Assembly (NCBI GenBank): GCA_013041765.1 | Contig: JABDRL010000217.1 | Coordinates: forward strand, 1 to 64,000 | DNA: 64,000 nt | Origin: Dactylosporangium sp. | Lineage (GTDB): Bacteria > Actinomycetota > Actinomycetes > Mycobacteriales > Micromonosporaceae | Reading direction: 5' to 3' | Shown: positions 1,190 through 57,798 of the stretch, in pieces | Position numbering within the stretch: the first letter of the stretch is position 1 | How the letters are laid out: each line of letters opens with the position of its first letter | Program-made: the position numbers and the translations under genes | Notes under the pieces: generated by a model | The model's database searches: none | What the model saw: the letters and a program-made list of their open reading frames with translations, nothing else | Told to the model about the DNA's origin: nothing

Positions 1190-1345
1190 GCGACCCGCTC
1201 CGCAGGCGGCCTGGCTCGCCCCCCGGCATCGCAAGATCCGGGAGAGCATCACAGTTGCGGGACAGCGCCGGGATCACACCGGCTTCGCTGCAAAGCGGTT
1301 CCCCAGACCGTAGTCCATCGACCAGGGCGGCTCCAGCCTCCCCTG
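1190..1345 (-). promoter_or_regulatory. Cobalamin (B12) riboswitch
   Basis: Read on the minus strand, the btuF leader holds the conserved aptamer core in order: GAAGCCGGTGTGATCCCGGC, then GCTGTCCCGCAACTGTGA (about 1266-1249), then the B12 box GAGCCAGGCCGCCTGCG (1217-1201). These match the cobalamin riboswitch consensus (GCCGGTG...CGCUGUCCCGCAACUGUGA...AGCCAGG..CCUGC). It lies 100-250 bases upstream of the start codon of btuF and should repress the transporter when adenosylcobalamin is plentiful. Exact ends are approximate. Confidence 0.9.
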
Positions 1346-1353
1346 ACGCGGTG

Positions 1354-1419
1354 TTATCCACACCGCTGTCCACAGTTATCCACAGGCTGGACGGCTAGTT
1401 GTCCACAGCCTGTGGATAC
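1354..1419. other. Cluster of DnaA boxes
   Basis: Two perfect TTATCCACA boxes (1354-1362, 1376-1384), one TTGTCCACA, the form preferred in actinobacteria (1399-1407), and two near-matches, CTGTCCACA (1366-1374) and TGTGGATAC on the other strand (1411-1419), lie within 66 bp of intergenic DNA between the btuF leader and the mqnE 3' end. There is no dnaA, dnaN or AT-rich unwinding region here, so this is not an obvious origin. A DnaA-titrating or regulatory locus, like the extra-oriC box clusters known in Streptomyces, is the likely role. Confidence 0.72.
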
Positions 1420-42261: not shown

Positions 42262-42437
42262 CGTTCTCAGTCGCCGGTGGATGTCGGCACCCGAACCGGG
42301 TGCCCCTCCGGCAGCGCCGAATCGTCACAGACGAACCGAGGACCCAGCAGCATTAACCGGGGTGAATCCGCCGTCAATCCGCGGTAGGGCGATCTTCCCG
42401 CCCGAACCCGTCAGCTAACTCGGTAGGCGATAACGGA
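42262..42437 (+). promoter_or_regulatory. c-di-AMP riboswitch (ydaO-yuaA class)
   Basis: The leader of the second NlpC/P60 gene carries the class signatures in order: TCGCCGGTGGATGTCGGCAC, AACCGGGGTGAATCCGCCG, GCGGTAGGGCGATCTTCCCG, CCCGAACCCGTCAGCTAAC and TCGGTAGGCG. This is the ydaO core (GGGGUUAAUCC ... AUAGGGCUAUCUCC ... CCCGAAUCCGUUAGCUAAC ... CGUAAGCG). In Streptomyces this RNA represses cell-wall hydrolase genes when c-di-AMP is high. The last conserved block ends about 25 bases before the start codon. Confidence 0.92.
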
Positions 42438-42455
42438 AGAAGGAGTCTCTCTTCG

Positions 42456-57535: not shown

Positions 57536-57798
57536 CATTCCCTGCGAGCCGGTTTCACCCTAACGGGTGATCATTATCAGCACACACTCCCGTTATCACT
57601 ATCAGCAATTGCCGACATCATTCATATGGGCGATTGCCCTTTGCGATCACATCATGTATAGGGCGAGAATCGTCCTATATAGCGCCTCTCCCGCCGGCCG
57701 TCAATAGACAGAGCCGCCGCTGTGGACAACTGCGGCGCTCTATCCACAGCGCAACGTTTGGCCTTCACCTGGGTGTGCTGGCCGTGCAGGCTCAAGGC
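57536..57798. promoter_or_regulatory. Repeat-rich control region before the DUF4192 gene
   Basis: An AT-rich gap with several elements: a small hairpin (TCACCC-TAAC-GGGTGA, 57555-57570), two direct repeats ATTATCAGCA (57573-57582) and ACTATCAGCA (57598-57607), an inverted repeat TATAGG...CCTATA (57657-57679), and DnaA-box-like sites TGTGGACAA (57721-57729, perfect on the minus strand) and CTATCCACA (57740-57748, one mismatch). The density of symmetry suggests protein binding; which factor is unknown. Confidence 0.45.

Follow-up and report, generated by a model that had tools for sequence, protein, structure and literature searches.

A putative extra-oriC DnaA-box cluster with nested inverted repeats between mqnE and the btuF leader of a Dactylosporangium genome

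Clusters of DnaA boxes located outside oriC are described as repressing untimely initiation of replication in Bacillus subtilis and Streptomyces coelicolor, in the passages of PMC5742627, PMC4585315, and PMC13220808 that deal with them. For B. subtilis, several clusters are described that neighbour the origin without being part of oriC (Okumura et al. 2012, cited in PMC13220808 and PMC5742627); as far as the citing passages describe it, this arrangement resembles the one reported here, whereas our cluster is known from sequence and appears to be lineage-specific in position. The S. coelicolor cluster (Smulczyk-Krawczyszyn et al. 2006, cited in PMC5742627 and PMC4585315) can be likened to ours by the description given in those citations: it is actinobacterial, lies outside oriC, and is said to repress untimely initiation. 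The datA and DARS loci of Escherichia coli are likewise non-coding box clusters outside oriC, but they act on the nucleotide state of DnaA together with IHF or Fis, whereas the present cluster is described here by its DnaA boxes. E. coli DnaA also prefers pairs of boxes placed 2–3 bp apart (PMC11317965). Extra-oriC control of initiation by DnaA has been tested in few actinobacteria, and the family-wide set of clusters described below gives concrete candidate sites for it.

The DNA analysed here (the window) is a 64,000-nucleotide stretch of one contig of a Dactylosporangium sp. genome. A scan of the window sequence identified five DnaA-type 9-mers at 1354–1419, i.e. three perfect matches to TTRTCCACA and two sites with one mismatch, all on the plus strand apart from the last, which is on the minus strand, with start-to-start spacings of 12, 10, 23, and 12 bp. 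They are TTATCCACA (1354–1362, perfect), CTGTCCACA (1366–1374, one mismatch, 3 bp from the preceding box), TTATCCACA (1376–1384, perfect), TTGTCCACA (1399–1407, perfect, the actinobacterial form), and GTATCCACA (1411–1419, one mismatch), which converges with the box at 1399 across a 3-bp gap. The 3-bp gaps in the tandem pair 1354/1366 and the convergent pair 1399/1411 recall the E. coli double DnaA box (PMC11317965), but the window cluster contains more boxes, in mixed spacing and orientation. These five sites in 66 bp, three of them perfect, are those named in the original prediction, which also pointed to a second pair upstream of a DUF4192 gene (57721–57748). This pair is present, though weaker, and consists of one perfect and one one-mismatch site on opposite strands (TTGTCCACA, minus; CTATCCACA, plus).

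The whole window contains 21 sites with up to one mismatch, against 10.25 expected, and 5 of the 21 fall within 1354–1419. Genome-wide, 44 perfect sites were found versus 23 for the reversed pattern, and 724 sites with up to one mismatch versus 649. At a rate of 724 such sites across the 5.19-Mb genome, the Poisson expectation is about 1.2e-7 clusters of five sites (up to one mismatch) in 66 bp, and the corresponding genome estimate for three perfect sites within 54 bp is about 3e-6. The cluster is real, and a chance origin is very unlikely. That the position of the cluster is not conserved might suggest an array that arose neutrally or by chance, or else a short dispersed repeat with a resemblance to DnaA boxes; we consider such an origin extremely doubtful, given the chance expectation of about 1e-7 and a DNA search that found the element only once in the genome, apart from its own palindrome, the matches in the congener being box-sized. 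The dispersed-repeat version was rejected on the absence of a second copy from the genome in that search.

The replication origin itself was located on another contig (C276:15285–15655), between dnaN and dnaA, where ten boxes with up to one mismatch occupy about 370 bp. The window cluster, which does not adjoin dnaA or dnaN, was accordingly rejected as oriC, and it represents a dense group of consensus boxes outside oriC beyond chance. Further clusters of the same genome were found upstream of dnaA, downstream of parB, and at C276:53085, C210:77777, C282:18530, and C202:4376. The genome scan, which yields this handful of similar clusters, agrees with the original proposal of a cluster outside oriC that is among few dense sites in the genome. 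Tandem pairs of perfect boxes number seven in this genome versus none in the reversed control. In the parB-downstream cluster on C276 (L036:14048–14149), an extended parS-like palindrome, GACGTCATGTTTCACGTGAAACATGACGTC, has DnaA boxes on either side.

Tandem perfect pairs with a gap of up to 30 bp are present in all 121 family genomes sampled, each of which holds between 1 and 32 of them; the reversed pattern matched once in the whole sample. In six complete relatives, 43 of the 44 extra-oriC clusters are located in the half of the chromosome nearer the origin (binomial p of about 3e-12, which is indicative only because the null is a uniform distribution). The origins of five of these relatives were placed by dnaA/dnaN matches and that of G130, without a dnaA match, by a dense box array, together with parAB homologues found at the opposite end of that contig record; G113 was excluded from the distance test. 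The clusters that G113 and G130 carry at C1:8958803 and C1:9249067, respectively, were rejected as oriC, as dnaA and dnaN were unmatched there. In four relatives (G004, G011, G014, and G015), mqnE, the gene next to our cluster, and oriC are 361, 496, 363, and 468 kb apart, respectively (relative distance 0.10–0.24), from which the contig carrying the cluster is predicted to lie near oriC in our own, fragmented assembly as well.

These data bear on the titration of DnaA, the function that the original prediction assigned to the cluster. The family-wide distribution and origin-proximal location of the clusters are what makes this reading fit, and the Streptomyces and Bacillus precedents also speak for it; on the other side, the position is not conserved, the genome holds further clusters comparable to this one, and the inverted repeats described below, at a terminator position, suggest a local role that the original prediction did not include. 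We take the window cluster to be most likely a putative site of DnaA binding and titration, of a kind already known, and we consider it reasonably probable that it is an extra-oriC cluster predicted to bind DnaA and contributing, with other origin-proximal clusters, to limiting re-initiation. DnaA would most likely bind the five boxes cooperatively, as predicted from the two neighbouring pairs with 3-bp gaps. Together with the other origin-proximal clusters, the bound boxes may, shortly after replication of the region, sequester DnaA or alter its nucleotide state, and this sequestration or change of state would then help to prevent premature re-initiation. For the window cluster, we infer both the binding of DnaA and the effect on initiation. 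Under titration, any single cluster would be redundant.

The position of the cluster was compared among relatives. Of the 80 named mqnE loci compared, that of Virgisporangium ochraceum is the only one with a cluster directly behind mqnE; three perfect boxes, accompanied by a hairpin (L064:4179–4229), lie there within about 60 bp of the mqnE stop codon, apparently as either an independent or a diverged parallel of the window cluster. In Planosporangium thailandense, a cluster is located about 0.9 kb from mqnE. No cluster was found after mqnE in 42 loci obtained from whole-genome searches, a set that overlaps the 80 and includes the closest mqnE (86 % identity, G038), and neither an mqnE ortholog nor a btuF match was found in the incomplete genome of the only congener, G001. 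Conservation in relatives, which had been proposed as a check of the cluster, does not hold for its exact position, shared with one other mqnE locus only; this position is most likely lineage-specific, judging from the loci compared.

The genes around the cluster are as originally described, with a B12 riboswitch leader on one side and mqnE on the other. The mqnE-like radical SAM gene (CofH/MqnC C-terminal region; 1437–2594) and the gene for a BtuF-like ABC transporter substrate-binding protein (Peripla_BP_2; 134–1093) are both encoded on the minus strand, and the latter is preceded by a cobalamin riboswitch on the same strand (1210–1283, a partial match to RF00174). The first box begins 18 bp past the mqnE stop codon. 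Along the direction of transcription, the order is the mqnE stop (1437), the cluster (1419–1354), a predicted −10 element (1312–1307), the riboswitch (1283–1210), and btuF, and the gap between the two genes holds nothing except the cluster, the promoter, and the leader; in many relatives, mqnE is near btuF with room for genes in between. The −10 element (TACGGT, 1307–1312, minus strand) is assigned to a putative btuF-leader promoter, given that 23 of 26 anchored relatives have TACSGT at the matching position ahead of the btuF leader, a set from which row L310, anchored at the wrong place, was excluded. Transcription of the leader probably starts near 1300, which would place the boxes at about −54 to −119. 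A second type of riboswitch, a c-di-AMP (ydaO/yuaA leader) element scoring 98.9 bits, occurs elsewhere in the window at 42305–42444.

The location of the boxes upstream of a conserved −10 element, about −54 to −119 from the presumed start, would be compatible with a cell-cycle-linked regulation of btuF, and hence of B12 uptake, by DnaA. In E. coli, ribonucleotide reductase is among the genes under DnaA control. Some ribonucleotide reductases need B12. Such a role is nonetheless quite improbable, as no comparable cluster occurs at the btuF leader in 29 relatives and perfect boxes are absent from C269, the contig with the second cobalamin riboswitch. An apparently conserved box upstream of btuF in Micromonospora-like genomes, a single TTGTCCACA, was rejected, as it encodes AVDNV within a carboxypeptidase-like gene. 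A sister cluster near cbiM also argues against regulation of B12 genes, since it is untied to cbiM in the congener. This cluster (C210:77777–77874; L038:13777–13874) keeps its box offsets (0/12/34) and orientation (++−) in G001 (L275:1167–1209), and the same racemase gene adjoins it in both genomes, but cbiMQO is found at that place in our genome only and is replaced in G001 by a universal-stress-protein-like gene. The retention of spacing while a neighbouring gene differs argues against gene-specific control, and a B12 or cobalt regulatory theme, suggested by two clusters beside B12 or cobalt genes, is weakened by the G001 sister cluster, which has no cbiMQO neighbour.

In one respect the window cluster is unusual: its spacers form nested inverted repeats to an extent that the boxes do not account for. 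One has 13-nt perfect arms (1377–1389 and 1406–1418; whole repeat 1377–1418) that reach past the boxes, and a second, identified by sequence and RNA folding, surrounds the box at 1354 (GCGGTGT/ACACCGC, 1347–1365). When the boxes were held fixed and the spacers shuffled, the real cluster folded better than the shuffled ones (z of −3.8 and −4.6), with 1 of 1000 and 0 of 1000 shuffles, respectively, folding as well. This excess is the strongest among 60 clusters tested, and the median for the 52 clusters of relatives is about −0.4. Titration leaves these strong inverted repeats unexplained.

A hairpin of this kind could act mainly as an I-shaped transcription terminator, i.e. one without a U-tract, behind mqnE, where it would block read-through into the B12-riboswitch leader of btuF, and DnaA on the boxes may add a roadblock. 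Hairpin ends lacking a U-tract have been described in Streptomyces clavuligerus and likened to I-shaped terminators, and the stable hairpin that follows the mqnE stop codon, beyond what composition explains, resembles the I-shaped terminators of GC-rich bacteria (PMC8269248), from which it differs in that its arms are built largely from DnaA boxes. The 13-nt perfect arms and the shuffled-spacer folding test favour this function, as do the GC-rich, long hairpins without a U-tract found just upstream of the conserved btuF promoter in about 20 of the 26 anchored relatives. On the other hand, a terminator could do without the DnaA consensus, to which three of the boxes conform perfectly, and a simple terminator scan, which needs a T-run, gave no terminator-like site here. 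Termination as the main function is thereby judged unlikely; a terminator role, alone or alongside DnaA titration, is plausible because the hairpin folds beyond its boxes, other clusters rarely do so, and relatives hold U-free hairpins at this place. It is very improbable that the two roles are coupled, with the box array also forming the terminator arms and DnaA occupancy deciding on mqnE read-through into the B12-riboswitch leader, which would link the replication state to B12 uptake.

Among the origin-proximal clusters on which the titration reading draws, the C282 locus belongs to the family-wide set as a member kept in place and spacing across genera. Three boxes with 32- and 21-bp spacing are found there in several genera (L222–L226, L228–L231, and L246), flanked by a gene for a YgjP-like metallopeptidase and by the gene that precedes an ABC1-kinase gene, and two of the three boxes are kept in the copy of our genome (C282:18509–18570; L039:8510–8571). 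This tri-box is a candidate conserved regulatory DnaA locus. Recurrent box arrangements, e.g. three boxes 20 bp apart, were also observed within genus g42 (L227, L232, and other g42 genomes).
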